Made by a program: the position numbers and the translations under genes
Assembly: GCA_001942415.1 (NCBI GenBank)
Contig: MKJX01000110.1
Coordinates: 1 to 64,000, forward strand
Length of the DNA: 64,000 nucleotides
From: Pseudonocardia sp. CNS-139
GTDB taxonomy: Bacteria > Actinomycetota > Actinomycetes > Mycobacteriales > Pseudonocardiaceae
Direction of reading: 5' to 3'
Shown: piece after piece, positions 38,463-58,225 of the stretch
How the letters are laid out: every line of letters begins with the position of its first letter
Position numbering within the stretch: the first letter of the stretch is position 1
The notes under the pieces: generated by a model
Seen by the model: the letters and a program-made list of their open reading frames with translations, nothing else
Told to the model about the DNA's origin: nothing
The model's database searches: none

Positions 38463-38672
38463 ATGGAGGACTGGTTCCGTTCCGGGGCCTGCGACGGTTT
38501 CATGATGGGCGTGCCAACGCTCCCCCTCGGTCTCGAACGTGTCGTCGACCTGCTCGTCCCCGGGCCGCAACGGCGCGGGCTCTTCCACCACGACTACACG
38601 GGCGCGACGCTGCGCGAGGAGCTGGGCGTCGCGGTGCCGGGCAGCTCCCACCTCGCCCCGCAGCCGGCGTGA
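38463..38672 (+). pseudogene. Luciferase-like monooxygenase C-terminal fragment
   Basis: 69 codons reading EDWFRSGACDGFMMGVPTLP, then GLERVVDLLVPGPQRRGLFH, then TGATLREELGV. This is the C-terminal end of FMN-dependent luciferase-like monooxygenases of the NtaA/SnaA/DszA group, whose members end in DGF...P...LE.FVD.VVPELQRRG and a TLR..LGL phrase. The remaining 350 or so residues are absent; the ClC gene occupies the upstream sequence. It is therefore a stranded gene fragment. Confidence 0.65.
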
Positions 38673-39912
38673 CGGCCGGTCCGGCGGCCGGTGCCGAGGC
38701 ACCGGCCGGGCTCGCCCGCGGCACCGTCCCGCTCGTCGCGCTGTGCGCGGGCGTGACGGTCGCCAACATCTACCTGGCGCACCCGATCCTCACGCTGCTC
38801 GCCGAGGCGTTCGGGGTGCCGGAGTCCGCGACCGGGTTCATCGTCACCGTCGCCCAGGTCGGCTACGCGTTCGGGCTGTTCTTCCTCGTGCCGCTCGGCG
38901 ACGTGCTGCGGCGCCGTCGGCTGGTCGCCGTGCTCGTCAGCGGCACGGGCGCGGCGCTGCTGCTGGCGTCGGCGGCGCAGGTGCTCCCGATGCTCGTCGC
39001 GCGACCGTGGTGCTCAGTCTCCTGACGGTCGTGCCGCACGTGCTCATCCCGTTACCGTCGCGTCCGTCCGCCCGGCCCGGCGCGGGCGCGCGCTCGCGGT
39101 GATCAACGGCGGGGATGACGGCGGGCATCGTCGGCTCGCGGGTGGTCGGCGGGGCCATCGGCGACGTGCTCGGCTGGCGTGCCGTCTACCTGGTGGCGGG
39201 CCTCGCGACGGTGGCCGTCGGCCTGCTCACCGCGTTCGTGCTGCCGACGGAACCGGTGCGCGCGCGGCCGCGCTACGACCGGCTCCTCGGCTCGACCCTG
39301 CGCTTCCTGCGCGACGAGCCCGCGGTGCGGTGGGCCGTCGCGATCCAGATCCCGGTGTTCGCCACGTTCAACTTCGTGTGGGTCATGCTCGTGCTGCTGC
39401 TCACCGGGCCCGCCTACCAGCTCTCCGTGGCCACGGCGGGCCTGTTCGGCCTGTTCTCGCTGGTGACGCTGCTGAGCGCGCCACTCGTCGGTCGGGTGCT
39501 CGACGCCCGCGGCACCGGGGTGGTGCTCGCCGGCGGGCTCTCGGTGCTGCTCGTCGGGGCCGCGGCGATGCTCGCGTCGGAGCTGAGCCTCGTGGTGGTC
39601 TGCGTGGCGATCGTGCTGATGACGATCGGCCAGCAGAGCACTCAGATCGCCAACCAGACCCGCATCCTCGAACTGCGCGCCGACGCCCGCAGCCGCATCA
39701 ACACCCTCTACATGACCAGCATCTTCGTCGGCGGCGCCATCGCGTCGGCGACCGCCGCGCTCGTGCACGAGGCGTTCGGCTGGACCGGGGTGAGCGTCGG
39801 CGCCTTCCTGTGGGCGGTGGTCGCCGTGCTGGTCGGGCTGGCGCAGAACCGGTTCGCCGGGCCGCCCGTCGGACCTGCAGCAAAGCCACCCCCACGCTGC
39901 GAGGCTGCATGA
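38669..39912 (+). CDS. Major facilitator superfamily transporter
   Basis: About 415 aa. The GTG at 38669 overlaps the stop of the preceding fragment. It has twelve expected helices: PLVALCAGVTVANIYLAHPI, VAQVGYAFGLFFLVPLGDVL followed by RRR (the loop 2-3 motif), VVGGAIGDVLGWRAVYLVAG, LVTLLSAPLVGRVLDARGTG and IFVGGAIASATAALVHEAFG. It is a DHA1-like drug/sugar efflux type. Several base losses in 39000-39115 break the N-terminal half. Its stop codon lies inside the repeated hairpin at 39877. It converges on the P450 gene; export of a P450/trp-cluster product is possible but unproven. Confidence 0.8.
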
Positions 39913-39947: not shown

Positions 39948-41154
39948 TCAGGCCCCGCGCTCGAACACCAGCGGGAGCGTGTCGTACCCCCACACGTTCC
40001 CGAGCGTCCGCATCCGTGGCGCCGCCCCCGGCGCCAGGCGGAACGGCGGAGCGAGCGCGGTGACCAGCTCCAGTGCGATCTCCAGCTGGTGGCGGGCCAG
40101 GTGGATGCCCAGGCAGCGGTGCGCGCCGAGGCCGAACGCGGTGTTCAGCGACGGGCCGCGGTCGAACCGCACGTCGGCGCCGTCGGCCAGGTCGCGGCTC
40201 GCGCCCGACGTCCCGACCAGCACGGTGTCGCCCGCCCGCATCGTGACGCCGCCCAGCTCGCGTCCCGGGTGAGCGTGCGGGCCGGCGGCACGATCGGGAA
40301 CGCGCGCAGCAGCTCGTCGAGCGCGGCCGGGACGAGGCCTGCGTCCGCGCGCAGGGCGGCCTGGTGTTCGGGGTGCGTGGCGAGGTGGTGGAAGAGCACC
40401 CCGAGCTGGCTCGTGACGGTGTCCATGCCGGCGATGAACAGCAGGAAGCAGGTGTCGAGCAGCTCGTCGTCGGAGAGCGGGGTGCCCTCGACGTCCGCCC
40501 GGACCAGCGCGGAGATCAGGTCGTCGCCGGGCTCGGCGCGGCGGCGGGCGATCAGGTCCACGAGGAACCCGACGATCGCGCCGCCGACCTCCGCGCTGCG
40601 GGCCGGGTCGCCGGAGTGCAGCAGGTCCCAGCTCCACGCCGCGAACTCCGGCCCGCGCTCCGCCGGCAGCCCGAACATCTCGACGAACACGGTGGTGGGC
40701 AGCGGCTTCGCGAGCGCGTCCACCAGCTCGACGCCGTCGGCGTCCGCGAACCCCCGCACCAGCCGCTGCGCGTGCCGCCGGACGCTCGCCACCACCGGCG
40801 TGATCGCGGCGGGCGCGAAGAACGGGATGAGCAGACGGCGGAAGCGGCGGTGCTCGTCGCCGTCCAGCTCCTGGGGGATGAGCTTGCGCGGCCAGAAGCC
40901 GGCCATCGGCGGCACGCCGGTGGGGTAGTTGCCGAACTCGTCGGCGCGCAGGAACGCCTCCCGCACCTCGTCCGCGCCGAGGACCAGCCAGAACCCGCCC
41001 AGCGCCGTCGAGTACAGCACGGGCGCTCGGCGCGCAGCCGGTCGAACGCGCCGTACGGGTCGGCGGTCACGGCCGGGTCGGCGATCACGTCGAGGTGCCG
41101 GACGAGGTGCGGGGGGACGTGTGCGGGGGCGGCGGGCGTCAGCTCCGTCGTCAT
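39948..41154 (-). CDS. Cytochrome P450
   Basis: About 402 aa, a soluble bacterial P450 from ATG 41154. Landmarks are the N-terminal PHLVRHLDVIADPAVTADPY, ADEFGNYPTGVPPM, C-helix ELDGDEHRRFRRLLIPFFAP, I-helix LLFIAGMDTVTSQL (acid-alcohol pair shifted to D-T), the K-helix E-x-x-R in DELLRAF, and the heme loop FGLGAHRCLGIHLAR with the ligand Cys. Two one-base losses, near 41033 and 40265, break it. Electron partners are not adjacent. It is flanked by two copies of a 51-base hairpin and has the same 17-base palindrome upstream as trpE, suggesting joint control with the trp operon. Confidence 0.88.
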
Positions 41155-41218
41155 CAACGCTCCAGGTCGGTCGGGGGTGCTCGGCAGGCACGCTAGGAGC
41201 CGGCGAGGACCCGGAGAG

Positions 41219-41235
41219 TGAGTAACGGATACTCA
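41219..41235. promoter_or_regulatory. 17-bp palindrome upstream of the P450
   Basis: TGAGTAACGGATACTCA: perfect six-base arms (TGAGTA/TACTCA) around ACGGA, 64 bases upstream of the P450 start. An identical 17-mer lies at 48412 in front of trpE. It is probably an operator or promoter core for a shared regulator. Confidence 0.65.
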
Positions 41236-41245
41236 ACTTCGTCTT

Positions 41246-41296
41246 GCAGCAAAGCCACCCTCACGCCACCACGCTGCATGAGGGTGGCTTTGCTGC
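41246..41296. terminator. Repeated hairpin, copy 2
   Basis: GCAGCAAAGCCACCC, centre, GGGTGGCTTTGCTGC: the same 15-base stem and near-identical 51-base element as at 39877. It lies 13 bases beyond the DAHP synthase stop, so it should end the trp operon before the P450 promoter. Confidence 0.75.
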
Positions 41297-41309: not shown

Positions 41310-42532
41310 TCAGGCCGCCAGGCCCCGCAGCAGCCACGCGGTGTGCACCGCGACGTCGACGGCCTGGCTCGCGTTCAGCCGCGGGTCGCACGCCGTCTCG
41401 TAGCGTTCGCCGAGGCGGTCCTCCGTGATCCCGGCGGAGCCGCCGAGGCACTCGGTGACGTCCTCGCCGGTCAGCTCCAGGTGCAGCCCGCCGGGTCGGG
41501 TGCCGGCCGCCCGGTGCGCCGCGAAGAACCCGCTGATCTCGGCCAGCACGTCGCCGACCCGGCGGGTCTTGTGCCCGCTCGCGGCCCGGACGGTGTTGCC
41601 GTGCATGGGGTCGCACGCCCACACCGCCGGGTGCCCGGCCGCCCGCACGGCCGCGAGCAGCGGCGGCAGCTCCGCGCGGATGCGGCCCGCGCCCATGCGC
41701 GAGATCAGCAGCAGCCGGCCGGGCTCCCGTTCGGGGTCGAGGCGTGCGCAGAGCGCGCGCAGGTCGGCGGGGGTGGTGCCGGGTCCGACCTTGACGCCGA
41801 CCGGGTTCGCGACGCCCGCGAGCAGCTCGACGTGCGCGCCGTCGAGCCGGCGCGTGCGGTTGCCGATCCAGAGCAGGTGCGCGCTCGCCGCGTACCAGCG
41901 CCCGGACGCCGGGTCGCGCCGGACCAGCGCCTCCTCGAACTGCGGGACGAGCGCCTCGTGCGAGGTGTGGACGGGGTCGCCGGCGGCCCGCAGCATGTTC
42001 AGGGTGGCGGCCGCGAGGTGGTAGGCCGAGAGCAGCCGGTCCGCGTCGGGACGGCGGGCGGCGGCGGTCGGCTCCGGCGCGTTGACGATGTCGCCGCGGT
42101 AGACCGGCAGCTCCACCCCGTCGACGTCTCGGTGGGGCTGCTGCGCGGCTTGCCGTACTGGCCGGCGATCCGGCCCACGCGTACCACGGGCGTGCCCGCG
42201 CCGGTCGCGAGCAGCGTCCCGGCCTGCCGGAACACGTCGATCTTGGCCCGGATCGCGGTCTCGGTGCACGCGTCGAAGCGCTCGGCGCAGTCCCCGGCCT
42301 GCAGCAGGAACGCGCGGCCCGCGGCGACCTCGGCCAGCGCCGCGCGCAGGTCGTCGACCTCGGCGGGCAGCACGAGCGGCGGCAGCTGCGACAGGCGCGC
42401 GGTCACCGCGTCGAGGTGGGCGGGGTCGGGCCAGTCCGGCTGCTGCTCGGCGGGCCGGTACCGCCACGAGCCCGGGTGCCACCCGGGCGGGGCCGGGCGT
42501 TCCAGCGTCGCCACGGTCGTGACGTCGTTCAT
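41310..42532 (-). CDS. Class II DAHP synthase, short secondary-metabolism form
   Basis: 3-Deoxy-D-arabino-heptulosonate 7-phosphate synthase, about 407 aa, first step of the shikimate pathway. The ATG at 42532 overlaps the trpA stop. Class II landmarks are LLQAGDCAERFD (metal Cys), RVGRIAGQYGKPRS, SHEALVPQFE, GNRTRRLDGAHVELL, NPVGVKVGPGTTP, LISRMGAGRIR, ACDPMHGNTV, GGLHLELTGEDVTECLGG and RYETACDPRLNASQAVD. It lacks most of the N-terminal extension and the roughly 45-residue helical insertion between the RAY..A...N and SHEAL segments that bind aromatic amino acids in the mycobacterial enzyme. It thus resembles PhzC-type, feedback-insensitive forms. One base is lost near 42130. Last gene of the trp operon. 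Confidence 0.88.
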
Positions 42533-43298
42533 CTGCATGCCTCCAGCAGCTCTTTCACCAGGTCGACGGGGTCGTGGCCGCGGTCGATCTCGGCGACGAG
42601 CGCGCTGCCGACGACGGCCAGGTCGGCGTGCCCGCGCAGGCCCGCCACGTGCTCGGGTCGGGAGATCCCGAATCCGGCCGCCAGCGGCAGGCCGGTGTGG
42701 CGCCGGACCCGCGCGAGCTGCCCGGCGACGTCGGCGGGCAGCGCGGCGCGGGTGCCGGTGACCCCGGCGACGTCGCGCAGTAGAGGAACCCGGTCGACGC
42801 GCCGGCGGCGAGGGCGATCCGCTCGTCGGGACTCCCCGGCCCGACGAGGAACACCGTCTCGACGCCCGCGGCCCGCAGCGGGGTCGCGACCGGGCCCGAC
42901 TCCTCCACCGGGAGGTCCGGCACGATCACCGCCGCCACCCCGGCCTCCGCGGCGTGGTCGGCGAACCGCTGCGGCCCGTACGCGAGGACCGGGTTCACGT
43001 AGGTCATCAGGACGACCGGCGCGGCGCCCTCGCCGGCGACGTCGGCGGCCAGCTCCAGGGCGCGGGCCACGGTGGTGCCGGCCCGCAGGGCCTGCTCGCC
43101 CGCGCGGCGGATCACCGGGCCGTCCGCGAGCGGGTCGCCGTGCGGGATCCCGATCTCGACGGCCGCCGCGCCCGAGGCGGCCAGCCGGCGGCCGACCTCG
43201 CGGGTCGTGCGGCCGTCCGGGTGCCCGGCCATGAGGTACGGGACGAGCCCGATGTGCGTTCCGACGTGCTTGAACCGGTCGGCCAGCCCGGCGGTCAC
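42529..43298 (-). CDS. trpA: Tryptophan synthase alpha subunit
   Basis: About 256 aa, cleaving indole-3-glycerol phosphate to indole and glyceraldehyde 3-phosphate. The GTG at 43298 overlaps the trpB stop. Catalytic residues are present: Glu48 and Asp59 in VEIGIPHGDPLADGP (Glu49/Asp60 of the standard enzyme), and the Tyr of GFLY before RDVAGVTG. The phosphate loop (GFGISRPEH) and VVGSALV are normal. One base is missing near 42778. With an apparently crippled beta subunit beside it, this subunit could release free indole; that is a hypothesis. Confidence 0.9.
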
Positions 43299-44469
43299 CG
43301 GCTCTCCCCTCTCGCGAGGACGTCGCCGTAGAGGTCGTGGTCGCCGCTGCCGGACAGGCAGACGAGCAGGTGCGCCCCGGCCCCGAGCTGTGCGGCCAGC
43401 CGCCCGGCGTGCGCCAGCGCGTGCGCCGACTCCAGCGCCGGGACGATGCCCTCCAGCCGGGCGCATCGGGTGGCGGCGGCGAGGGCGTCGTCGTCCTCGA
43501 CCGACACGTACGTGGCTCGCCCGCGGGTCGCGAGCAGCGCGTGCTCGGGCCCGACGGCCGGGTAGTCGAGCCCGGCGGCGACCGAGTGCGTCGGCAGCGG
43601 CTGCCCGTCGCCGTCCTGCAGGACGAGGCTGAAGCTGCCGTGCAGCACCCCGGGCGTGCCGTGCCCGGCGGCGGCCGCGTGCCGCTGCCGGCCGGTGCCG
43701 CCGGCCTCGACGCCCACCAGCCGCACGAGTGCGTCGTCGAGGAACGCGGTGAACGCGCCGATCGCGTTCGACCCGCCCCCGACGCACGCCACCACGCGTC
43801 CGGGAGCGTGCCGGTGGCCTCGAGCACCTGCGCCCTGGCCTCGTCGCCGATCACCCGCTGCAGGTCGCGCACCAGCTCCGGGTACGGCGCGGGCCCGATC
43901 GCCGAGCCGACGGCGTAGTGCGTCTCGCCGGGCCGGGCGGCCCAGTCCCGGATGGCCTCCGAGATCGCTTCCTTCACGGTGGCCGAGCCGGACGCGACCG
44001 TCCGGACGTCGGCGCCGAGCGTCCGCATCCGGTGCACCTCGACCGGGCGGCGCACGGCGTCGGCCGCGCCCATGTAGACCACACACGCCAGACCGGCCCG
44101 CGCGCACGCCGCGGCCGTCGCGACGCCGTGGCGCCCGCCTCCGGTGTCGGCGACCACCCGCGTGCGGCCCATCCGGCCCGCGAGCGCGACCTGGCCGGCC
44201 GCGCTGTTGAGCGTGTGCGCCCCGGTGTGGCAGAGGTCCTCGCGCTTGAGGTGGATCGTGGCCCCGCCGTGGTGCTCGGTGAGCCGCCCGGCGGTGTGCA
44301 GCGGCGTGGGCCGTCCGACGAACGTCGCGTGCAGCTCCTGCAGCTCGGCCCGGAACCCCGGGTCGGTGCGCAGGGCCGTCCACGTCTCGCGCAGCTCGTC
44401 GAGGGCCGTCGTCAGGGTCTCCGGGACGTAGCGGCCGCCGAACCGCCCGAACCGGCCGGGGTCGTTCAC
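43295..44469 (-). CDS. trpB: Tryptophan synthase beta-like subunit lacking the PLP lysine
   Basis: About 391 aa; the ATG at 44469 overlaps the trpC stop. The fold and length are those of TrpB: GRFGGRYVPETLTTALDELR, HLKREDLCHTGAH, GVATAAACARAGLACVVYMG, THYAVGSAIGPAPYPELVRD, CVGGGSNAIGAF, AGLDYPAVGPEHALL and VPALESAHALAHA. But the Schiff-base Lys of GAHK is Thr86 (GAHTLNSA), the catalytic Glu of ETGAGQHG is Asp108 (DTGGGRHG), and the GRGDKD loop reads GSGDHD. Lys-to-Thr at this position inactivates the Salmonella enzyme. One base is lost near 43800, away from these sites. It may be a non-catalytic partner of TrpA or have another activity. Confidence 0.85.
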
Positions 44470-45247
44470 CGGGTCAGCTCCCCGAGCACGGCGGCCGGGT
44501 CGTCGGCGCGCATCAGCGTCTCCCCGACGAGAACGGCGTCGGCGCCCGCGGCGTGCAGGTCCTGCGCGTCCGCCCGGGAGCTGATCCCGCTCTCGCCGAC
44601 GACCACCGGGCCGCCGCCGATCCGGGCCCGCAGCCGGGCCGTCAGCGACATGTCGATCGAGAAGTCGCGCAGGTCCCGGTGGTTCACGCCGACGACGTCC
44701 GCGTCCGCGGCGAGCGCCCGGTCCACCTCGGCGGCGTCGTGCACCTCGACGAGCGGGGTCATGCCCAGCTCGCGGACCAGCCCGAGCAGGTCGGTGAGCC
44801 GCGCCTGCGGCAGCGCGGCGACGATCAGCAGCACCGCGTCGGCGCCCAGCGCCCGCGCCTCGAACACCTGGAACGGCTCGACGACGAAGTCCTTGCGCAG
44901 CAGCGGCAGATCGGTGGCGGCCCGGACCTGCGCGAGGTGGTCGGGGCTGCCGCCGAACCCGGCCTCGTGGGTGAGCACCGAGACGGCCGCCGCGCCGCCC
45001 TTCTCGTAGGCCGCGACCTGCGCGACCGGGTCGTAGTGCGCCACCAGCGGCCCGCGGGAGGGGCTGCGGGACTTGAGCTCCGCGATCACCCGCAGGCCGT
45101 CGCCCCGCAGCGCGGCGGCGAAGTCCCGGGGCGGGTCGGCGGCCTGCACCATCCAGTGCAGGTCGCGTCGGAGAGCGTCCGGCGCCGCCGCGCGGTCTGC
45201 GCGCGGGCCTCGGCGACGAGCCGGTCGAGCGTCGCGAGCCCGGTCAA
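44466..45247 (-). CDS. trpC: Indole-3-glycerol-phosphate synthase
   Basis: About 260 aa, a TIM barrel that closes and decarboxylates CdRP to indole-3-glycerol phosphate. The TTG start at 45247 overlaps the trpD stop (TTGA). Catalytic residues seen: Lys in VIAELKSRSPSRG, Lys in PLLRKDFVVEPFQ, Glu in TPLVEVHD, Asn in VGVNHRDL, Glu and Ser in VVGESGISS. One base is missing near 45165, within the N-terminal helix segment. No trpF lies in the operon; in actinobacteria PriA usually supplies that step. Confidence 0.9.
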
Positions 45248-46274
45248 GATGCCCGCCGTTCCGGCTCGGCGGCCTGCACCGAAGCTTGCACCCAGCGGTC
45301 GAGCCGGGCCGCCGCCGCCCCGCTGTCGACGGCGTCGGCGGCCCGCCGCAGCCCGTCGGCCCAGTCCGCGGCCCGGCCCGTCACGAGCAGCCCGGCCGCC
45401 GCGTTGAGCAGCACGACGTCGCGGCGCGGGCCGCGCTCCCCGGCCAGCACCGCGCGCACGATCGCGGCGTTGCGGGCCCGGTCGCCGCCCGCGAGGTCGG
45501 CGATCCGGGAGCGCGCGATGCCCAGGCCGGCCGGGTCGAGCCGGTAGCGGCGCACGGCGTCGCCGTGGATCTCCACCACGTCCGACGGCGCGGCGACGCT
45601 CAGCTCGTCCATGCCGTCGAGCGAGTGCACGACCAGCGCCCGGGTGACGCCGAGCCGGCGCAGCACCTCGGCCAGCGGCTCGGCCAGCGCCGGGTCCGGC
45701 ACCCCGAGCACCTGGAACCGGGCCCGCGCCGGGTTGCAGAGCGGCCCGAGCAGGTTGAACACCGTGCGCACGCCCAGCTCGCGCCGGGCCGGCGCGGCGT
45801 GCCGGAACCCGCCGTGGAACACCGGCGCGAAGAGGAAGGTGACACCGGCGAGCCCGAGGCAGCGGGCCACCGCGGCCGGGCCGAGGTCGATCCGCACGCC
45901 CAGCTCCTCCAGCACGTCGGCGCTGCCGCACGCGGAGGAGACGCTGCGGTTGCCGTGCTTCGCGACGCGCACGCCGCACGCCGCGACGACCACCGCGGCC
46001 GCCGTCGAGACGTTGAACGTGTCGTGCCCGTCGCCGCCGGTGCCGCAGGTGTCGAGCACGTCGTCGCCGCTGAACGGGACGTGCGCGGCTGCCTCCCGGG
46101 CGGCCCTGGCCATCCCGACCAGCTCGTCCACCGACTCGCCGCGCACGGCCATCGCCATCGCCAGGCCCGCGACCTGTGCGTCCGTCGCCTCGCCGCGCAT
46201 GATCGCGCCCATCGCGCGGTGCGCGGCGGCCTCGTCGAGCGCCCCGCCGCCGCGGACGGTGCGCAACAGGTCGA

Positions 46275-46278
<4 letters not shown>
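45244..46278 (-). CDS. trpD: Anthranilate phosphoribosyltransferase
   Basis: Intact, 344 aa. Joins anthranilate to PRPP. The ATG at 46278 overlaps the trpG stop. Motifs are MGAIMRGEATDAQVAGLAMA, the PRPP loop DVLDTCGTGGDGHDTFNVST, AKHGNRSVSSACGSADVLEE, FLFAPVFHGGFRHAAPARRE, VFNLLGPLCNPAR and VHSLDGMDELS. All catalytic features are normal. It is coupled on both sides. Confidence 0.93.
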
Positions 46279-46839
<561 letters not shown>

Positions 46840-46843
<4 letters not shown>

Positions 46844-48258
46844 GCCTGCTCCTCCGCGGCGCGGACCGCGGCGAAGACCGCCCCGGCCTTGTGCACCGTC
46901 TCCCGGTACTCCGCGTCCGGGTCGGAGTCGGCGACCACGCCGGCCCCGGCCCGCACGTGCACCGTCCCGTCGCTGACGACCAGCGTGCGCAGCGCGATCG
47001 CGAGGTCCGCCACGCCGCCGTGGCCGACGAACCCGAGCGCCCCGCCGTACACGCCCCGCCCGGCGCCCTCCAGCTCGGCGATCAGCTCCATCGCGCGGAT
47101 CTTCGGGGCGCCGCTCAGCGTGCCCGCGGGGAACGCGCAGCGGATCGCGTCGAGGCAGGTGTGGGGCGCGGCCAGCTCGCCGACCACCGTGGACGACAGG
47201 TGCATGACGTGCGAGAACCGCTCGACGTCCAGCATGCGTTCGACCTCGACCGTGCCCGGCCGGCAGACCCGGCTCAGGTCGTTGCGCGCGAGGTCGACGA
47301 GCATGACGTGCTCGGCGCGCTCCTTCTCGTCGGCGAGCAGCTCCCGTTCCAGCGCCGTGTCGGCGGGGGCGTCGGCGCCGCGCGGCCGGGTGCCGGCCAG
47401 CGGGCGGATGCGCACCTGGCGCCCGTCGGTCCGGACGAGCAGCTCGGGCGAGGCGCCGACGACGTACCGGCCCTCGCCGAGCGACAGGTGGTACATGTAC
47501 GGCGACGGGTTGACCGCCCGCAGGTGCCGGTAGACGGTCAGCGGGTGGGCCCGCAGCGGCTTGCCGAACCGCTGCGACACGACGATCTGGAACGCCTCAC
47601 CTGCGGCGATGTGCTCCTTGGCCTGCCGCACGCGGGCGGTGAACGTCGCGCGGTCGACCTCGGGTTCCCACTCGGCGGGCGGGCCGGCCGGTTCGGGGGC
47701 CGGCTCGGGCGCGGGCGCCGCGATCCGGGCCTGCATCGCGTCGAGCCGGGCCAGCGCGTCGGCGCGGCTCTCCTCGCGCGGGCGGTGCAGCGTGACGAGC
47801 AGCAGCCGGCGCGTCGCGTGGTCGAGCACGGCCAGGTCGTCGACGGCGAGGAACGCGGCGTCGGGCAGGCCCTCGGCCGGGGGCGGCGGCGCGGGCAGCC
47901 GCTCGAAGTGCCGCGCGACGTCGTAGCCGAGGTAGCCGACCGCGCCCCCGGCGAAGGGCGGCAGGCCGGGCACCGGGGCCACCCTCGACGTCACGAGCGG
48001 GTGCAGCGCGGCCAGCGGGTCGCCGGGCGGCAGCGGCAGCACCCGCGGCCGGTGGCTGATGTAGGAGTACCGGCCGACCGAGCCGTCCGGGCTGACGCCC
48101 TCCAGCAGGAAACCGGGCCGGTCGGGGTCGTTCAGCCGGGTGAACAGGGTCACCGGCGTCGTGGTGTCGGCCAGCAGCTCGCGGACGACGGGGACGACGT
48201 CGTACGCCGTCTCGTCGGTGGCAGTGGCCGGTCGGGTGAGCTCGCCCAGGGCGATCAC
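46840..48258 (-). CDS. trpE: Anthranilate synthase component I, altered feedback motif
   Basis: Intact, 472 aa from GTG 48258, with GGAGG eight bases upstream. Converts chorismate to anthranilate. Normal chorismate-site motifs: FQIVVSQRFGKPLRAHPLTV, AVNPSPYMYHL, SPELLVRTDG, PLAGTRPRGADAPAD, KERAEHVMLVDLARNDLSRV and FPAGTLSGAPKIRAMELI. The N-terminal LLES-x10-S tryptophan-binding motif is changed: residues 51-54 read LLEG, with the second Ser (65) kept in RYSYIS. Loss of this Ser is associated with feedback resistance. It heads a seven-gene coupled operon. A 17-bp palindrome lies about 155 bases upstream. No Trp-codon leader peptide is visible. Confidence 0.92.
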
Positions 48259-48411
48259 GTGGTCAACCTCCTCGTGGGCAGCACGGATCGGCGACCCGTC
48301 GGACGTTCGTCGACGAGCCGCTGCTCGGTGCCGGGATCTCCGCGTGGAGGGGCCCTCGTCGGCGCGCTCCTGCGGCGCCTTCCAGTGAAGCCGTGCCGGC
48401 TTCGTTTCGGC

Positions 48412-48428
48412 TGAGTAACGGATACTCA
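48412..48428. promoter_or_regulatory. 17-bp palindrome upstream of trpE
   Basis: TGAGTAACGGATACTCA, identical to the site at 41219 before the P450. It sits 13 bases past the stop of the LuxR gene and about 155 bases before trpE. A small hairpin, GAAGCCG-TGC-CGGCTTC at 48388-48404, lies just inside it. Confidence 0.65.
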
Positions 48429-48441
48429 TCCTCGGCCGGCG

Positions 48442-51128
48442 TCACGCCCGGCCGGTGGACTCCAGGAGCCGGGCCAGCTCGGCGCGGCTGGACACGCCGA
48501 GCTTCGTGTAGACGTTCTGCAGGTGGTTCGTCACCGTGCGGGTGGACAGGCCCAGCCGCCCGGCGATCTCGCGGCTGGCGTGCCCGCCGCCGCGAGCACC
48601 GCGACCTCGCGCTCGCGCCGGCCCAGCCGCCCGGGGATCTCCGGGCCGAGCGCCGCGGGCGACCGGCCGCTCTCGCAGCGCTGCAGCATCGCGGCCGCCC
48701 GGGCGGTGGCGGCCGCCGCCGGCCGGGAGCGCCCGGCGGCGCGCAGCAGCCGGGCCGCGTCCCGGAACGCCTCGGCGGCCAGCAGGTGCGCGCCGAAGCC
48801 GGCGAACGCCTCCCCGGCCGCGGACAGCTGCGCGGCGTCGCCCGCGGCCAAGCCACCGGCGTACGCGGCGCGGGCGTGCAGCAGCGGGCTGTCGGAGCCT
48901 GCGGCCAGCTCGGCCAGCCGGTCGGCCACCAGCTCGGGGAAGCCGAGCCGGGCCACCTGGTGGCGCGTCACGGCCTCCGCGGTCACCCGCCCGGCCGCGG
49001 CGTCGGCGGTCGCGGCGTCCTGCAGCACCTTCGCCGCGTCCGCGGTCGCGCCCTCCGCGGCCAGCACGGACGCCTCCGCGAGCACCACGAGGTCGGTGGC
49101 CCGGTCCGGCCACCGGTCGGTCAGCTCGTCGAGCCGGCGGCGGGCGTCGGCGACCTCGCCCAGCCGGGCCTGCACCACGACGCGCCCGCGAGCCCGTCGC
49201 GCAGCAGCTCGGGCCGGGCGCTCGCCCGGGCGACGCCGGCCAGCTCGCGGAAGTGCCGCAGCGCGGTGCGGTCCCGGCCGCCGAGCAGGTGCAGCCGGCC
49301 CAGCAGCAGCGCGCCCCGGGCGTGCACGCCGGGCACGTCGGCCAGCACGACGTCGGCCATCCCGCCCTCCGCCTCGGCCTGTGCGTCGGCGAGCCGGCCC
49401 GCCGCCATCATCACCGTGGCGACGGAGAACCGCAGGTAGGAGCGGTGCGAGAGGATCGACGTGCCTTCGGCGCCGATCCGGCCGATCCCGTCGAGCCCGC
49501 CCGCGGCCAGCTCGGTGAGCGCCTGCACCGGACGCCCCGTGGCGCCCAGGACGTCCAGCCGCGCCGTCCCGGCCACGGGGGAGGTGCGGGCGAGCGCCAC
49601 GGGCACGTCGGCGAGCAGCGCCACGGCCCGCCCGGTCCGGCCGCGGTCGTTGAGCAGCGCGGCGGCGGCCGCCGTCAGCTCGGCGTGGTCGAGGCCCGGG
49701 GTGGCGGCGATCGCCCGTTCGATCACGGCGAGCGCCTCCTCCGGCCGGCGCACGGTGTAGCCGAGGGTCAGCGCGTGCTCCACCGCGATCCGGCACAGCA
49801 GCTGCGCCTGCGCCGGCAGCACCACCGCGGCCGCGGCGGCCTCGTGCGCGGCGCAGCCCTCCTCCGGCCGGTGCAGCTCGGAGCGCGCGTGCCCGAGCAG
49901 GAACAGCGCCATCGCGGCGTGGTCGGCACCGCCGGGCGCGGCCAGCGCGGCCGCCGCGAGCCGTTCGGTGGTGGGGTAGTCGTGCACGGCGCACGCGAGC
50001 CGGGCCGCCCGCAGCAGCAGCTCGGGGTCGCCCGCCGTGCCGAGCGCCAGCTCCCAGCCGGCGAGCCGCAGCGCGTCCTCCTGGCGGCGGGCGCCGAGCC
50101 CGCGCACGCGGGCGATGTGGGTGCGCAGGATGCGTTCGGTGCGCAGGCTGGGCGTGCGGTGGCGCACCGCCTGCACGTAGAGCGGGTGCGCGAGGCTCGC
50201 CGTCCGCCGCCGGCCCCGGACGTCCACCCGCAGCACGCCGAGCCGCTCCAGCTCCGCGACGGTCTCGGGTGCGGCCAGCGCGTCCAGGGCGGCGGCCTCC
50301 AGCGGTTGGCAGACGGCCACGTGCTCCAGCAGCTCCCGGCTCGCGACGGCAGCGCGGCGAGCCGGGCCTCGATGAGCTGGTCCAGCCGCGGCGTGGTGCC
50401 GGGCTCGTCCACCAGCTGCCACACGCCGTCGCCCGGCACGAGCGTGCCGGCCGCGAGCGAGCCGAGCACCAGCTCGCGCAGGAACAGCACGTTGCCCTGG
50501 CCGGCCCGGGTCAGCGCGGCGAGCGTCGTCGAGGTGACCGGGCCGCCCAGTGCCCGGCCCAGCAGCTCGTCGACGCCGGCCGCGTCCAGCGCGCCGAGGT
50601 CGGTCCGGTCCATCCCGTCCGGCACCTCGCCGTTGACGAGCGTGCCGCTGCGCAGGGTGGCGAGCAGGAACACCCCGCCCTCCGTGGCCAGCCGGGTCAG
50701 CAGGTCCAGCGACACCGGGTCGAGCAGGTCGAGGTCGTCGACGAACACGACCTGGCGGCGCCCGCCGGACTGCGTGCGCCAGCTCGTGCGGGTGCGGTCG
50801 AGCAGCCGGGCCGCGTCGGTCGCGGCGCCCTCCTCGATCGACCCGGACGGCACGGGCAGCGCGTCGAGCAGCGGCACGAGGTGCGCGATGGCGCCGAGCG
50901 GGATGCCGGCGCGGTCCGGCTCGTGACGGCGCGGGCGACCGGCACCCCGGCCGCCGAGGCGAGCGCGAGGCACTCCTCCGCCAACCGGGTCTTCCCGACG
51001 CCCGCTGCTCCCACCAGCAGCAACCCGGTGCGGCGCGAGTCGGCGAGGTCCGTCCGGAAGCGGTCCAGCTCGCCGTCGCGCCCGACGAACGGCCACGGCT
51101 CCGTGGGGGCGGCGACGTTTCCCGGCAT
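48442..51128 (-). CDS. LAL-type LuxR regulator with ATPase domain (copy 1)
   Basis: About 895 aa from ATG 51128. N-terminal AAA-type NTPase: PFVGRDGELDRFRTDLADSR, Walker A VGAAGVGKTRLAEECL and Walker B VVFVDDLDLLD. A long TPR-like alpha-helical centre follows. The C-terminal LuxR HTH reads LGRREREVAVLAAAGG, then HASREIAGRLGLSTRTVTN, then HLQNVYTKLGVSSRAEL. At least four base losses (near 50935, 50350, 49195 and 48590) break the frame. The LAL class usually activates antibiotic or sugar-pathway operons on binding a small ligand and ATP. It ends 14 bases before the trpE-side palindrome, on the same strand as the operon, and is a natural candidate for its activator. Confidence 0.8.
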
Positions 51129-51184
51129 CTCCGCAGTACTCGCCCGGACCGGCTCCGGTGCAACGGTGCTCCCTGTCACACGCG

Positions 51185-53859
51185 TCACGCGCGGTCGAGG
51201 GCCGCGGCGAGCTCGGCCCGCGTCGAGACGCCGAGCTTGCGGTAGACCTTCTGCAGGTGGTTGTTCACCGTCCGCACCGACAGCACCAGCGCCGCCGCGA
51301 TGTCCCGGCTGGGCACGCCGTCCGCGGCCATGCGGGCGATCTCCCGTTCCCGCGCCGAGAGCGCCACGGCGCCGCCGGCCAGCCCGGCCGTCGCCGGCGA
51401 CCGGGCGCCCTCGCAGGCCGCCAGCCACTCCTGGGCGCGGGCGGTCATCCGCGCCGCCCGGCGGGGCTCGCCGCGTTCCGCGTAGCCGGCCGCCGCGGCC
51501 ACGGCCGCCTCCGCCGCGGAGAGCAGCAGGCCCATGCCCTCGAACGCGTCCGCGACGGCGGCGAGCGCGTCGGCGTCGCGGTCGGCGGCCGCGGCGGCGT
51601 GCCGGGCGCGCAGGTGCACGACCGGGCTGTCGGCGCCGCGGGCCAGGTCCGCGAGCAGGCCCGCCACCTGCGGCGCCGCCCCGAGCCGGACGACGTCGTG
51701 CAGCGCCGTCGTGGCCGCGGCAACGTCGCCGTGCGCCGCGTCGACCTCGGCGGCCGCGCGCAGGACCGCGACCGCCCCGTCCGGGTCGCCCGCCCCGATC
51801 CGGACCCACGCCGCGGCGCGCGCGAAGAGCCCGCGGTCCGGCACGGCGCCCTCCCCGAGGGCCTGGTCGAAGCTGCGCGCCGCGGCCTCCGCGTCGCCGA
51901 GCAGGACGTGCGCCATCGCCGCGTTCGCGATCGCCTGCTGGACCTGCAGGAGCAGGTTGTTGGACCGGGCCCGGGCGGCCGTCACGCCGAGGTGGCGCAG
52001 CGCGGACGCGGACGGCCGGCGGCGAGGTGGTAGCGCCCGAGGTGGTAGTTGCCGATGATCTCGGCGGGCGCGTTCGCCTCGGCGGCGTCGAGGCCGCGCC
52101 GCGCGTCCTCGATCGCGGCCGGGAGCTGCCCGGCCTCGTACCGCACGCTCGACAGCGCGAGCCACCGCAGCGCCACGTGCGGCCACGGCATGCCCTCGGG
52201 GTCCGGGGCGAGGTCCGCGGTGCCGCCCAGCGCGACGTCCGCGGCGGCGTACGGGAGCGCCTCCACCGCGCGGCCCGCCGCCGCCAGCGCGGTGGCCCGG
52301 GCCTGCGCGCCCAGCGGCCCCGGGATCCGGGCCAGCCCGCCGGGGGCGCCCTCGATCGTGGCGAGCGCGGCGCCGGGGTCGCCGCCGATGGTGAGGATGA
52401 GCGCGGCGGTGCCGGCCAGCTCGTCCTGGTGCTCGCGGGGCAGCACGGCCCGGGCGTCCGCGATCGCCTGCAGCGCCGACGGCGGGTCGCCCAGCGAGAA
52501 CGCGAGGAAGACCGCGCGCATCATCGCCGTGCGGCGCAGCTGCGGGCCGGGGCGCGCGGCGAACACGCGGGACGCCGCGGCCAGGTGCTCCTCCGCCTCG
52601 GCGGGCCGGTCGAGGTGGCCCAGCGCCTCGCCCAGGACGCGCCGCGCCTCGGCGGCCAGCTCGCCCGTGGGACCAGCGGCGAGGGCGGCGCCCGCGAGCC
52701 GTTCGACCTCGGCGAAGTCCAGCTCGGACAGGCTCAGCCGGGCCGCCCGCACCAGCAGCTCCGGGTCGGCCGTGCCGGACGCGGCGAGCTGCCACGTCGC
52801 GAGCCGCAGCACGTCGCCGCGGCGGCGCGCGCCCAGCCGGCGCAGCCGCGCGATCTGGGTCCGCAGGATCGCCTGCGCCCGCGCGGGCGGGATGCCGTCG
52901 CGCAGCACCTGCGCGTGCAGCGGGTGCGCGAGCGCGGCCCAGCGGCGCTGCCCGTCGCGCTCGACGGTGACGAGGTCGGCGGCCTCCAGCTCCTCCAGCG
53001 CGGTGTGCGGGACCAGCTCCAGCAGCGCCGCGACCTCCAGCGGCGCGCACAGCGCGAGGTGCTCCATCGCCACGCGCTGCTCCGGCCCGGCGGCGGCCAG
53101 CCGGGCGGCCACCAGCTCGTGCAGCCGCGGGCCCGTGACCAGCGGCGACGCCAGGTGCCACACCCCGTCCGACCGCGTCAGCCCGCCCTCGCGCACGGCG
53201 GTGCGCACCAGCTCCCGCAGGTGCTGCACGTTGCCCCGGGAGAGCGTCGCGAAGGTCGCGCCGGTGTCCACCGTGACGGGCCCGCCGAGCACGTCCTCCA
53301 GCAGCCGGCGGACGGTCGGCGGGTCCAGCTCGCCGATGTCGACGCGGACCGCCCGGCCCGCCGTCCACAGCCGTTCGGCCAGGTCGGGCAGCGGCCGGTC
53401 GGCGCGCAGCGCGGCCACCAGGAACACCGCCCCGACCTCGACGAGCTGCGCCACGAGGTTGGCCGAGACCGAGTCGAGCAGCTCGAAGTCGTCCACGAAC
53501 CCGACGAGCCGCCGCCCGCCGGTGCGCTCCGCCAGCACGGCGCGGGCCTGCGTGAACAGCTCGACCGCGGTGACGTCGAGCGGGTCGGCTGGCTCGGGCG
53601 CGAAGTGCCGGGCGAACGCGCCGAGCGGCACCAGCCGGGCCGTGTCCGACGCGGCGACCGTGTCGACGGGCAGGCCGCGCGCCGCCGCCCGGACGAGGCA
53701 CTCCTCGCCCAGCCGGGTGCGGCCCACCCCCGGCGTGCCGACGACGAGGAACCCGCCGTACGCCGGGTCGTCCACCACGGCCTCGAACGCCGTGAGCTCG
53801 CTGTCCCGCCCGACGAGCGGCCAGCCGCCCGCGACCGCTCGGCTGCCCTGCCTGACCAC
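51185..53859 (-). CDS. LAL-type LuxR regulator with altered Walker A (copy 2)
   Basis: About 891 aa from GTG 53859. Same architecture as the adjacent copy: PLVGRDSELTAFEAVVDDPA, Walker A VGTPGVGRTRLGEECL, Walker B VGFVDDFELLD, helical repeats (LLVRAARLSLSELDFAEVER and others), and a C-terminal HTH (LSAREREIARMAADGVPSRD, then IAAALVLSVRTVNNHLQKVY, then RKLGVSTRAEL). The invariant Walker A Lys is Arg (GVGRT), which in P-loop ATPases normally weakens or abolishes hydrolysis. One base is lost near 52018. It is 56 bases upstream of copy 1 in the same direction; the two probably arose by duplication and may act together. Confidence 0.82.
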
Positions 53860-53954
53860 GAACGGAGGCTAGGAAGCGGATGATAACGATCCGACGACTC
53901 CACGTATCAGACGGGTGAGAACTGTGGGTGCGGATCAACTCGGCGGAACGGCGG

Positions 53955-55284
53955 CTACTCCGACCGGCGGTCGACGAGCCGTTGCAGCTTGCCCACGGAG
54001 CGTTCCAGGGTGTCCGGGTCGACCACCTCGCACGCGACGGTGACGCCGACGGTGTCCTTGACCGTGCCCACCAGCTCGGCCGCGGCCGGGCCGCGCCGGC
54101 CGGCGGGGGTGTCCGGGCGGGCCTCCACGCGCACGGCCAGCGCGTCCAGCCGGCCGTGGCGGGTGAGCACGAGCTGGAAGTGCGGCGAGAGCCCCGGCGT
54201 GCGCAGCACGACCTCCTCGATCTGGGTCGGGAAGACGTTCACGCCGCGCAGGATGATCATGTCGTCGCTGCGGCCGGTGACCTTCTGCATGCGCCGCATC
54301 GCGGGCCGCGCGGTGCCCGGCAGCAGCCGGGTGAGGTCGCGGGTGCGGTAGCGGATGATCGGCAGTGCCTCCTTGGTGAGCGAGGTGAACAGCAGCTCGC
54401 CCTCCTCGCCGGCGCGCAGCGGCGTCGGAGTGGGAGCGGGGTCGAGCGGGTCCACGACCTCGGGGAGGAAGTGGTCCTCCCAGACGTGCAGCCCGTCCTT
54501 GGTCTCGACGCACTCCTGCGCGACGCCGGGGCCGATCACCTCGGAGAGCCCGTAGATGTCCACGGCGTGCATGCCGGTGCGGTCCTCGATCTCGGCGCGC
54601 ATCTCCTCGGTCCAGGGTTCGGCGCCGAAGATCCCGACCCGCAGCGAGGTCGCGCGCGGGTCGAGGCCCTGGCGTTCGAGCTCGTCGATGATCGTGAGCA
54701 TGTAGCTGGGGGTGAGCATGATGACGTCGGGGCGGAAGTCCTGGATGAGCTGTACCTGCCGCGGTGTCATGCCGCCGGAGACGGGGATGGCGGTCGCGCC
54801 CAGCTTCTCGATGCCGTAGTGCGCGCCGAGGCCGCCGGTGAACAGGCCGTACCCGTAGGCGTTGTGCACCTTGTCGCCGGGGCGCCCGCCCGCGGCGCGG
54901 ATCGAGCGGGCCATCACGGTGGCCCAGGTGTCGATGTCGCGTGCGGTGTAGCGACCACCGTGGGGCGGCCGGTGGTGCCGCTGGAGGCGTGCACGCGCCG
55001 CACCTGCTCGCGGGCACGGCGAACATGCCGAACGGGTAGCTGTCGCGCAGGTCGGCCTTGGTCGTCATGGGGAACTTCGCGAGGTCGCCCAGCTCCCGGC
55101 AGTCGTCGGGGTGGACGCCCGCCGCGTCGAAGCTGCGCCGGTAGAACGGCACGTTGGCGTAGGCGTGGCGCAGGGTCGCGCGCAGCCGGTCGAGCTGCAG
55201 GGCCCGCAGCTCGTCCGCGGACATGCGCTCGGCGGGGTCGAGCGTCGCCGGGTCGGGGGCGTCGCCGAGCCGCTGCGCGGTCAC
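53955..55284 (-). CDS. paaK: Phenylacetate-CoA ligase
   Basis: About 443 aa, an AMP-forming ligase that activates phenylacetate. The GTG at 55284 overlaps the paaZ stop. It reads [40 protein letters not shown], the SSGTTG-type loop (obscured by base losses near 54950 and 55015), [48 protein letters not shown] and the C-terminal [15 protein letters not shown], with [20 protein letters not shown]. These are PaaK-specific. It is the last gene of the paaZK unit, 95 bases from the LuxR start. Confidence 0.9.
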
Positions 55285-57311
55285 CGCTTGGCCACCAGCG
55301 TCAGCACGTCGTAGCGGGCGACCGACTCGCCGTCCTGGCGCGTGATGTCGGCGTCCCAGCGCACCTCGCCGTAGTCGGCGGTGTCGCGCGGTGTCACCTG
55401 CTTGCAGGTGAGCGTCACGGTCAGCGCGTCGCCGAACTTGACGGGCGCGAGGAACCGCAGGTGGTCGACGCCGAAGTTGGCCAGCACCGGGCCCGGGTCG
55501 GGGTCGACGAACAGGCCCGCGGCCAGCGAGACCACCAGGTAGCCGTGCGCGACGCGCTCGCCGAAGAGCGGGTTGGCGGCGGCCGCGGCGGCGTCCATGT
55601 GGGCGTAGAACGTGTCGCCGGTGAGCTCGGCGAAGTGCTCCACGTCCTCCTGGGTGACGGTGCGCGGCCCGGCCACGACCGTGTCGCCGATCCGCAGGTC
55701 CTCCAGGTGCTTGCGGAACGGGTGGACGTCGCCGACGTGGCGCTGCGCGCCGGCGACCCAGCGTCCGGTGACCGCGGCGAGCGTGTCCGGGTCGGCTTGC
55801 ACGGCGGTGCGCTGCATGTGGTGCAGCACCCCGCGCACGCCGCCCATCTCCTCGCCGCCGCCCGCGCGGCCGGGGCCGCCGTGCACGAGCGGGGGCAGCG
55901 GCGAGCCGTGGCCGGTGGACTCCTTGGCGTCGCGGGAGTTGAGCACGAGCAGCCGCCCGTGCCACGGCGCGACGCCCAGCACGACGTCCCGGGCGAACGC
56001 GGGGTCGGCGGTGACGACCGACCCGGCCAGGCTCCCGCGGCCGCGGGCGGCGAGGTCGACGAGCTGCGCCGTGCCCTCGTACGGGAGCACCGTCGCGACC
56101 GGCCCGAACGCCTCCACCTCGTGCGGCTCGGCCCGCTCCGGGTCGCCGACCAGCAGGATCGGGGAGAGGAACGCGCCGCGGTCCGGGTCGGCGCCGCGGA
56201 CGGCGACGCGCTCCGGGTCGCCGAACACGACCCGCCCGGCGTCGGCGAGCGCCTTGACGCTGCGGCGCACCTCTTCGCGCTGGTCGAGGCTCGCCAGCGC
56301 GCCCATGCGCACGTCCGGGTCGGCGGGGCTGCCGACGGTGACCTCGGCGAGCCGCGCGGCGGCGGCCTCGACCACCGCGTCCACCTGCGCGGCCGGGACG
56401 AACGCGCGGCGGATCGCGGTGCACTTCTGGCCGGCCTTCACCGTCATCTCGGTGACCAGGCCGCCGACGAACAGGTCGAACTCCGGCGTGCCGGGGACGG
56501 CGTCGGGGCCGAGCGCCGAGAGGTTCAGCGAGTCGGCCTCCGCGGTGAACCGCACCGCGTTGCGCACGACCGCCGGGTGCGCGCGCAGGGTCTGCGCGGT
56601 GGCCGCGGAGCCGGTGAAGGACACCAGGTCCTGGCCGGTGAGGTGGTCGAACGTGTCACCGAGGCTCCCGGCGACGAACTGCAGCGCTCCCTCGGGCAGC
56701 AGCCCCGACCCGACCACGATCTCCACCAGCTCCGCGGTGAGGAATGCGGTCGGGCTCGCCGGCTTGACCAGCGTCGGGACGCCCGCGAGGAACGCCGGCG
56801 CGAGCTTCTCCAGCGGGCCCCACACGGGGAAGTTGAACGCGTTGACCTGCACCGCCACCCCGTGCAGCGGCACGCACACGTGCTGGCCGAGGAACGTGCC
56901 GCCGCGTCCGAGCGGCTCGACGGCGCCCTCGACGTAGACGGTGTCGTCGGGCAGCTCGCGACGGCCCTTGCTCGCGTAGGACAGCAGCACGCCGATACCG
57001 CCGTCCACGTCGAACCGCGAGTCGGCGAGTGTGGCACCGGTGCGCGCCGACACGGCGTAGAGCCGGTCGCGGTGCTCGCGCAGGTGCTGGCCCAGCGCCT
57101 TCAGCAGCGCGGCCCGCTGGTGGAACGTCAGCTCCCGCAGCGCCGGCCCGCCGACCCGGCGGCCGAAGTCGAGTGCGGCGGCGAAGTCGACGCCGGCCGA
57201 GGAGATCCGCGCGACCTCCGCGCCGGTGACGGCGTCGAAGAGGGGCCGTCCGTCGTCCGCAGGCGGCTGCCAGCGCCCCTCGACGTAGCTGCGCAGCAGC
57301 GGACTGGTCAA
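55281..57311 (-). CDS. paaZ: Oxepin-CoA hydrolase / 3-oxo-5,6-dehydrosuberyl-CoA semialdehyde dehydrogenase
   Basis: Intact, 676 aa, bifunctional PaaZ. The N-terminal ALDH domain has [50 protein letters not shown], the Glu of FTAEADSLN and the nucleophile [12 protein letters not shown]. The C-terminal MaoC-like hydratase domain (from about residue 530) has [20 protein letters not shown] with the catalytic Asp and His, and [15 protein letters not shown]. It opens the oxepin ring and oxidises the aldehyde. The start TTG 57311 is supported by GAGGAG upstream. It is divergent from paaG with a palindrome between. Confidence 0.93.
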
Positions 57312-57342
57312 CGCGCTCTCCTCGCGTCGGCGGCGGAGCGGT

Positions 57343-57356
57343 CGAACGATCGTTCG
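57343..57356. promoter_or_regulatory. Palindromic operator between paaZ and paaG
   Basis: CGAACGATCGTTCG, a perfect 14-base palindrome in the 63-base gap between the divergent starts. It resembles sites of TetR-type phenylacetate repressors (PaaR); the TetR gene at 58222 is the obvious candidate. A related site precedes paaA. Confidence 0.7.
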
Positions 57357-57374
57357 GTTGTCGTGCACGTTAGC

Positions 57375-58225
57375 ATGACCGGCGTGGAGACCAACAGTGG
57401 CGACGTCGCCAGTGCTGTCCCGCCCGCCGTTTCGCCCGCCGTCCTCGTGACGCGCGACGAGCAGGATCCGGCGGTCGCCCTGGTGGTGCTCAATCGGCCG
57501 GAGAAGCGCAACGCGCTCACCGTGGAGCTGAAGGAGGCGCTGGTCACGGCGCTGGCGGGGGTGGCGGCCGACCCCGGGGTGCGGGCCGTCGTGCTCGCCG
57601 GGTCGGGCCGCTCGTTCTGCGTGGGGCAGGACCTCGCGGAGCACGCCGAGGCGCTGCGCACCGACCCCGCCGCCGCGCTCACCACCGTCGAGCGGCACTA
57701 CAACCCGATCGTTCGGACGCTCGCCACGATGCCCAAGCCGGTGGTGGCCGCGATCAACGGCACCGCCGTCGGGGCCGGGCTCGGGTTCGCGCTCGCGTGC
57801 GACCTGCGGGTGGCCGCGTCCGGGGCGACGTTCGGCACGGCGTTCGCCGCCATCGGGCTCACGGCCGACTCGGGCCTGTCCGCCACCCTCGTGCACGCGC
57901 TAGGGCACGCCAGGGCCACCGAGCTGATGCTGCTCGGCGACATGTTCGACGCCGCGGCCGCGCAGCGTCCGGGCTGGTCACGGAGGTCGTCCCGGCCGAG
58001 GACGTGCTCGCGACCGCGCTCGGGCTCGCCCGCCGGCTGGCCGCGGGCCCCACGCTGGCCTACGCCGAGATCAAGAAGGCGCTCGCGTTCGGCGCCGTGT
58101 CGGGGCTGGACGCCGTGCTCGCCGCCGAGGCCGCCGCGCAGATCCGGCTCGGCGGCACGGCCGACCACCGGCACGCCGTCGAGGCGTTCCTCGCCAAGCG
58201 GCGTCCCGTCTTCGAGGGCCTGTGA
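57375..58225 (+). CDS. paaG: Enoyl-CoA hydratase/isomerase, PaaG-like
   Basis: About 283 aa, crotonase family. In the phenylacetate pathway the PaaG isomerase turns ring-1,2-epoxyphenylacetyl-CoA into oxepin-CoA. It reads [60 protein letters not shown] and [20 protein letters not shown]; the SFCVGQDL and ADSG blocks fit PaaG. One base is lost near 57972, before [14 protein letters not shown]. Start ATG 57375. Its stop overlaps the TetR GTG (GTGA). PaaF is a weaker alternative. Confidence 0.82.

Follow-up and report, generated by a model that had tools for sequence, protein, structure and literature searches.

The window analyzed here, i.e. the whole 64,000-nucleotide stretch of Pseudonocardia sp. 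CNS-139 (G000:C110:1-64000), carries on its minus strand a second tryptophan operon with the gene order trpE-trpG-trpD-trpC-trpB'-trpA-aroG' (the last gene encoding a class II 3-deoxy-D-arabino-heptulosonate 7-phosphate (DAHP) synthase), followed in the same direction by a cytochrome P450 gene. The TrpB homologue of this operon (TrpB') has a threonine in place of the lysine that forms the Schiff base with pyridoxal 5'-phosphate (PLP). Its sequence makes it very probable that the protein is unable to function as a tryptophan synthase by the known route, and the claim of an earlier note on this DNA, that the lost catalytic residues preclude such synthesis, is thereby strongly supported. Judged from sequence and by analogy, TrpB' may be a catalytically dead TrpB retained to activate TrpA, its partner in the operon, allosterically for indole release, a proposal for and against which we see the scales as evenly poised.

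With the Salmonella sites in brackets, TrpB' has Thr86 (Lys87), Asp108 (Glu109), Gly111 (Ala112), Arg113 (Gln114), Glu144 (Asn145), Val165 (Leu166), Ser375 (Arg379) and His378 (Lys382), and it reads GSGDHD where canonical TrpBs have GRGDKD; the residue correspondence used here is our working assumption. It is consistent with the residues named in the cited passages of PMC9512447. The Schiff-base lysine and the catalytic glutamate (Glu109) are each present in 43/43 canonical sequences, at which sites TrpB' has Thr and Asp. At the columns invariant in 35 canonical TrpBs (seven operon relatives and 28 sequences from the genus), TrpB' deviates at 16/165, whereas the canonical TrpB of the same draft, encoded on contig C22, deviates at none of the 163 covered; with the wider set of 43 canonical TrpBs, TrpB' deviates at 10 of 115 invariant columns. 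Each of Gln113Arg, Asn144Glu and Lys378His requires two nucleotide changes from the codons of the relatives. The earlier note had described these substitutions correctly (Thr86, Asp108 and GSGDHD are all present in the DNA) and passed over the operon, the second (canonical) copy and the shortening of AroG; it also misnamed the GRGDKD segment as the phosphate-loop region, which we take to be GGGSN, a motif that TrpB' keeps.

The homology of TrpB' to canonical enzymes extends over the whole chain: with its frames joined, the best match among solved structures is LBCA TrpB (E=1.1e-139, residues 5-380), and the mean identity to the seven operon relatives is 65.4%. TrpB' has also retained the LSG serine, the PALES glutamate and the histidine preceding the Lys site, which, like GGGSN, presumably have roles in PLP binding. 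The sites of TrpA contact and of closure are represented by Arg140 and Asp302 (R141 and D305), Arg147 (R148), Lys166 (K167) and Arg174 (R175), all kept, while changes occur at the D168 site (Asp167Glu) and at the S178 site. The roles of R141, D305, R148, K167 and R175, including that of R141-D305 as the closure salt bridge of TrpB, are taken from the cited parts of PMC9512447, PMC6608616 (M. tuberculosis numbering) and PMC8187860. The GC content of trpB' by codon position is 0.79/0.56/0.97, and, since this signature is retained, trpB' is not a long-dead gene.

Of the seven operon proteins, TrpB shows the highest conservation among the seven relatives (79.5% mean identity). Counted over columns that do not vary among the other sequences, the window proteins deviate at 27/242 (trpE), 8/82 (trpG), 15/153 (trpD), 10/98 (trpC), 38/248 (trpB), 15/121 (trpA) and 39/221 (aroG), and the same count for the most divergent relative, L083, gives 22/237, 11/85, 20/158, 15/103, 6/216, 11/117 and 7/189, respectively. 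Pooled, trpE, trpG, trpD, trpC and trpA are not accelerated as a group (window 75/696 vs. L083 79/700), and Fisher tests on the deviation counts set both TrpB (38:6 vs. the pooled 75:79; p=4.8e-6) and AroG (p=8.4e-6) apart from these five. The window:L083 branch ratios on a fixed tree are 3.2 for trpB, 2.8 for aroG, 1.6 for trpE, 1.0 for trpC, 0.9 for trpD, 0.9 for trpA and 0.4 for trpG. The TrpB' deviations are distributed as 6/62 in residues 1-100, 23/72 in the COMM region, whose limits we assume to be 101-188, and 9/114 in the rest. At the second codon position, trpB' and aroG' have a slightly higher GC content (GC2) than the three relatives displayed, a difference compatible with mild relaxation or with a shift in function.

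TrpA of the operon keeps the catalytic Glu48 (Glu49) and Asp59 (Asp60) and the Tyr of GFLY, as the earlier note had read, and its loop 6 (AGVTG) is intact directly after the joined frameshift. At deep-invariant columns TrpA deviates at 1/43 and TrpC at 4/65; the corresponding values for the canonical proteins of the same genome are 0/41 and 4/64, the latter four all lying at residues 206-213, where the match ends. The sole deep-invariant change of TrpA is Gln64Arg (alphaQ65). In the cited part of PMC8187860, simulations of a TrpA variant linked alphaQ65/N66 to betaD168; Gln64Arg thus falls at one side of this link and Asp167Glu of TrpB' at the partner site.

The genes of the operon and the adjacent P450 gene are as follows:
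46840..48429, minus strand: trpE, anthranilate synthase component I (Pfam Chorismate_bind, E=3.5e-88; start uncertain)
46275..46754, minus strand: trpG, glutamine amidotransferase (Pfam GATase, E=3.4e-46, profile from position 29; the N-terminal end is probably in another frame)
45244..46278, minus strand: trpD, anthranilate phosphoribosyltransferase (Pfam Glycos_transf_3, E=3.5e-92)
44466..45152, minus strand: trpC, indole-3-glycerol phosphate synthase (Pfam IGPS, E=4.3e-72; N-terminal end uncertain)
43298..44469, minus strand: trpB', pseudo-TrpB (GTG start; one frameshift; Thr86, Asp108, Arg113, Glu144, Ser375, His378)
42529..43298, minus strand: trpA (GTG start; one frameshift; Glu48, Asp59, GFLY and GVTG kept)
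41310..42538, minus strand: aroG', class II DAHP synthase (Pfam DAHP_synth_2; frameshift near 42140)
39948..41260, minus strand: cytochrome P450 (Pfam p450, E=3.3e-12 on 40148-41260, and PDB matches; at least one frameshift)

The trpC stop overlaps the GTG start of trpB', and the trpB' stop that of trpA, which is what subunits made in step would show. The open reading frame (ORF) 42529..44469 (646 aa), which the earlier note took as one unit, overlooking both frameshifts, is a frame chimera and not a single protein: its first 225 codons correspond to TrpB residues 1-225, its last ~79 to the TrpA C-terminus, and its middle is out of frame, the C-terminal half of TrpB and the N-terminal half of TrpA being found in other frames. 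The trpB' frame is broken near 43795 and the trpA frame near 42765; a single missing base would account for either break, and both frames were joined across the breaks before analysis. With aroG' and the P450 gene, whose frames are broken too, at least four genes of the locus are frameshifted. In the P450 gene, the Cys motif FGLGAHRCLG lies in the frame 39948-40637; the frame 39951-40637 has no Pfam match.

The draft genome (7.1 Mb, 250 contigs, 78.5% complete) has further breaks of this kind. Contig C22 groups canonical trpE, trpC, trpB and trpA homologues, of which trpB and trpA are each split by a frame break, and rpoB is split over two frames by a frameshift (G000:C217:41186-44490). Because rpoB and canonical trpBA are broken in the same assembly, we take the indels in trpB' and trpA to be probable assembly errors, this being the likeliest cause, unproven for these two genes. 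The rpoB break is also a caution for every frame-based reading of the genome. The canonical trpBA would supply tryptophan for protein synthesis.

The loss of the lysine is confined to the window genome among those examined. Of 390 genomes of the family, eight have a close TrpB (E <= 1e-84), one of them the window genome; the other seven (L078-L084) share the same seven-gene order, and their TrpBs are canonical, each with Lys, Glu, Gln, Asn and GRGDKD. A clade sharing the threonine, for which the earlier note had suggested aligning homologues, did not appear: the lysine is present in 37/37 loci read in the genus (29 best matches and eight second copies; 62 genomes searched, 60 with a match), in 7/7 of the family and in 2/2 of the order, where five of 397 genomes had matches at E <= 1e-83, two of them new and both canonical. 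The pattern HTGAHT-x-N, which misses HTGSHT and other forms, gave 23 matches and no TrpB in a collection of 84,980 species from which records close to the window genome may be excluded. A wider pattern, not covering every substitution, gave three matches in 394 genomes of the class, namely trpB' itself and two non-TrpB sequences. In 128 plasmid records all matches were below 60% identity, a comparison of identity only, of which the Lys site was not part. A bacterial TrpB pseudoenzyme was not found in the titles and abstract openings listed by searches of the open-licence (PMC) literature.

Four second TrpBs of the genus (L042, L043, L044 and L045 of genomes G011, G022, G024 and G018, respectively) diverge in another way. 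They keep Lys87, Glu109 and Gln114, but all four carry Lys at the R141 site and Val at the D305 site, and three of the four carry Thr at the K167 site. Their loci have no trpA match; these TrpBs look stand-alone, with the closure salt bridge lost.

Pfam annotation of the flanks of the relatives' operons covered 18 proteins from L078, L080, L081, L082 and L083 (not L079 and L084). The flanks of L078, L081 and L083 contain a gene for a fusion of an FAD-monooxygenase (FAD_binding_3) with a pyridoxal-dependent decarboxylase (~950-1000 residues). P450 genes occur in L078, L081 and L082, and by tblastn also in L083, glutathione-transferase genes in L078 and L081, acyl-CoA-dehydrogenase-type genes in L078, L081 and L082, and a nonribosomal peptide synthetase gene in L080. 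In L078, L081 and L083 the fusion gene, the P450 gene and the trpEGDCBA-aroG operon probably form a cluster for a tryptophan-derived metabolite. None of 11 proteins neighbouring the relatives' operons matched the window at E <= 1e-8. These findings make it probable that the operon originally provided tryptophan for a special metabolite and that this setting has since been lost in the window genome. A tryptophan-consuming partner elsewhere in the genome was considered and rejected, as the decarboxylase matches on C181 and C190 are just 25-33% identical to the relatives' fusion; C77 gave no match at E <= 1e-8, and no ortholog is apparent in the (incomplete) genome.

The surroundings of the operon in the window include the LuxR-type and AAA_16 genes upstream of it, in the same direction, and a transporter gene beyond the P450 gene:
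38669..39912, plus strand: MFS transporter (Pfam MFS_1 on 39115-39909; 38669-39025 from ORF reading alone; frameshifted)
48442..51163, minus strand: probable large LuxR-type regulator (Pfam GerE on 48445-49113; the frame 49771-51096 has no Pfam match; frameshifted)
51982..53868, minus strand: AAA_16 ATPase, possibly a second LuxR-type regulator (Pfam AAA_16, E=2.4e-8)

Farther away, the window contains genes of the phenylacetate-degradation type at 53955-61059 (an AMP-binding enzyme with C-terminal domain, an aldehyde dehydrogenase and MaoC fusion, and PaaA/PaaC) and, at 1613-2698, the C-terminal domain of the Shedu defence protein SduA.

The DAHP synthase of the operon is shortened: a segment of 57-62 residues in the seven relatives is reduced to 6 in AroG', so that an insert of 51-56 residues is missing, and the lost stretch falls within an open frame. 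The position of the gap fits the alpha2a/alpha2b insert between alpha2 and beta3. In PaeDAH7PS-PA1901, an enzyme of a phenazine cluster, absence of this insert goes with insensitivity to aromatic amino acids, according to the cited part of PMC6435475; by analogy, AroG' may be a feedback-free DAHP synthase. Among the seven PDB matches of AroG', the short form 6bmc is the only one whose best stretch spans the region (residues 1-253), and the five printed alignments, all to long forms, split at the insert region, the alignment to 6bmc itself being unprinted. By score, the long form 5uxm (290.8 bits) exceeds 6bmc (233.4 bits), so the insert loss seems independent of the known short form. At the site of LLES, which we take to be the tryptophan feedback motif, TrpE of the window has LLEG; of the four relatives displayed, three have LLES and one has LLED. 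TrpE is thus possibly feedback-insensitive as well. Such control would be of little use in a line with an end product other than tryptophan.

In the mechanism that we propose, TrpE, TrpG, TrpD and TrpC would make indole-3-glycerol phosphate, which TrpA, docked on TrpB' and activated by it, would cleave. As TrpB', with its Schiff-base lysine gone and its indole and serine sites altered, could not run the PLP chemistry of serine, indole would leave the complex, and its likely user would be the adjacent P450 or another enzyme. Arg113 and Glu144 (Salmonella 114 and 145) may form a salt bridge that replaces the Gln-Asn contact of the closed state and favours this TrpA-activating state. According to the cited passages of PMC9512447, the contacts of the Gln114 side chain with Asn145 and Arg148 are present in the closed state and absent from the open one, and aldimine complexes of Salmonella beta-K87T adopt the closed alphaR-betaR state. 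The pairing of an indole lyase with a non-catalytic activator, already suggested in the earlier note, is the best-supported mechanism, because TrpA is not accelerated, the named contact and closure residues are kept and a proven analogue exists in plants; it stands here as a proposal derived from sequence and analogy. In its full form, TrpB' would be the first bacterial TrpB pseudoenzyme, held closed by an Arg114-Glu145 salt bridge and turning its own TrpA into an indole lyase within a dedicated operon whose DAHP synthase is free of feedback and whose indole is passed to a P450, a solution convergent with plant TSB-like; this fuller reading is tentative and on balance rather doubtful.

Several points weigh against the activator proposal. 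In the Salmonella complex, the ~30-fold activation of the alpha site accompanies formation of the aminoacrylate (PMC9512447, in the part cited), a stage that a TrpB' devoid of Lys87 should not reach. The same source reports that Gln114Ala destabilises the closed state, and Gln113Arg could likewise do so. The Arg113-Glu144 pair may be a coincidence, since Glu144 lies in a patch (residues 139-146) with five changes, Glu144 among them, at relative-invariant columns. When the two TSB-like substitutions were put into an active plant TSB, tryptophan synthesis was lost and no indole production was gained (PMC12727527, cited part). No indole-using enzyme was identified, the best family match of the P450 being 42% identical. 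AroG' is accelerated too (39/221; ratio 2.8) and trpE mildly (1.6), and relaxed selection would yield the same. With at least four genes frameshifted in the draft, the frame breaks may be genuine, and, with no second genome showing the change, a conserved dead state is hypothetical.

The strongest rival is relaxation followed by decay, in which the tryptophan-consuming cluster genes were lost and the duplicate operon, left without purpose, is eroding, TrpB and AroG going first. That these are the two clearly accelerated genes, that AroG lacks 51-56 residues, that trpB', trpA, aroG and the P450 gene are all frameshifted, that 0/11 of the relatives' operon neighbours match the window and that every other genome examined lacks the change would all follow from it. 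Erosion of this kind sits poorly, however, with the pooled rate of the five other Trp proteins, with the single deep-invariant change of TrpA (1/43) and with TrpB' itself, which still matches 149/165 deep-invariant columns, has a GC content of 0.97 at third codon positions and has its changes clustered in the COMM region; moreover, the stretch lost from AroG lies in an open frame and matches a loop absent from a working short-form enzyme. We regard decay as unlikely, yet as an explanation to be taken seriously.

A new catalytic or ligand-binding role of TrpB', e.g. binding of PLP or an amino acid in the absence of Lys87, or passage of indole to another acceptor, would make use of the kept GGGSN, LSG Ser, His before the Lys site and PALES Glu, through which a PLP-like ligand could bind. 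Since no replacement base is evident at position 86, residues of the indole and carboxylate sites are altered and no cognate reaction can be named, this role appears improbable. Least probable by far is an error of assembly or base calling, with AAG at codon 86 and intact frames in the true gene: the incompleteness and fragmentation of the draft (78.5%, 250 contigs) and the frameshifts in rpoB and canonical trpBA speak for it, but the canonical TrpB of the same assembly deviates at 0/163 columns against 16/165 in TrpB', and three of the substitutions need two nucleotide changes each, so that the natural divergence favoured in the earlier note holds up well. As the source of the indels alone, assembly error is likely.

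If the activator proposal were true, bacteria would have reached the free-indole route of plants independently, via different substitutions, and the rules by which a non-catalytic TrpB activates TrpA would become comparable across systems. TrpB' would then also offer a natural K87T-type subunit for studies of alpha-beta allostery, and a lysine-less TrpB beside an intact TrpA would serve as a genome-mining mark for indole-derived natural products.

Compared with known systems, TrpB' resembles canonical bacterial TrpBs in its collinear trpBA arrangement, in the named TrpA-contact and closure residues and in its 65% mean identity to the operon relatives; it differs in lacking the Schiff-base Lys and the catalytic Glu and in the altered Gln114 site and GRGDKD loop. 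Salmonella beta-K87T carries the identical Lys-to-Thr change and, in the passages cited above, forms closed aldimine complexes, but it is a laboratory mutant, whereas TrpB' is natural and has many accompanying changes. BX1-type indole-3-glycerol phosphate lyases of plants share the expected product, free indole, and the link to special metabolism; they are stand-alone lyases (PMC12727527, cited part), while here TrpB' is kept beside TrpA. AroG' shares the absence of the alpha2-beta3 insert with PaeDAH7PS-PA1901, which serves secondary metabolism (PMC6435475, cited part), and differs from it in being nearer to the long forms by score.

The proven analogue is plant TSB-like of the core eudicots, in which, according to the cited part of PMC12727527, E190 is replaced by Ala (Ser or Pro in Solanaceae) and D386 by Glu, TrpA binding is retained and a permanently active conformation is proposed, TSA then releasing indole. 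Both proteins are derived from TrpB, have the catalytic Glu altered and have lost essential catalytic residues. Loss of the PLP lysine, replaced by Thr86 in TrpB', is not named for TSB-like in that part of the source. The plant protein uses the TSA of the cell; TrpB', by contrast, is encoded together with a TrpA of its own in an overlapping operon, and the function is shown in the plant and only proposed for TrpB'. With Asp at the Glu site, and with the Asp that we consider equivalent to D386 (the D305 site of Salmonella) retained, TrpB' lies outside the plant TSB-like family; by analogy, it may nonetheless work like TSB-like despite its other substitutions.

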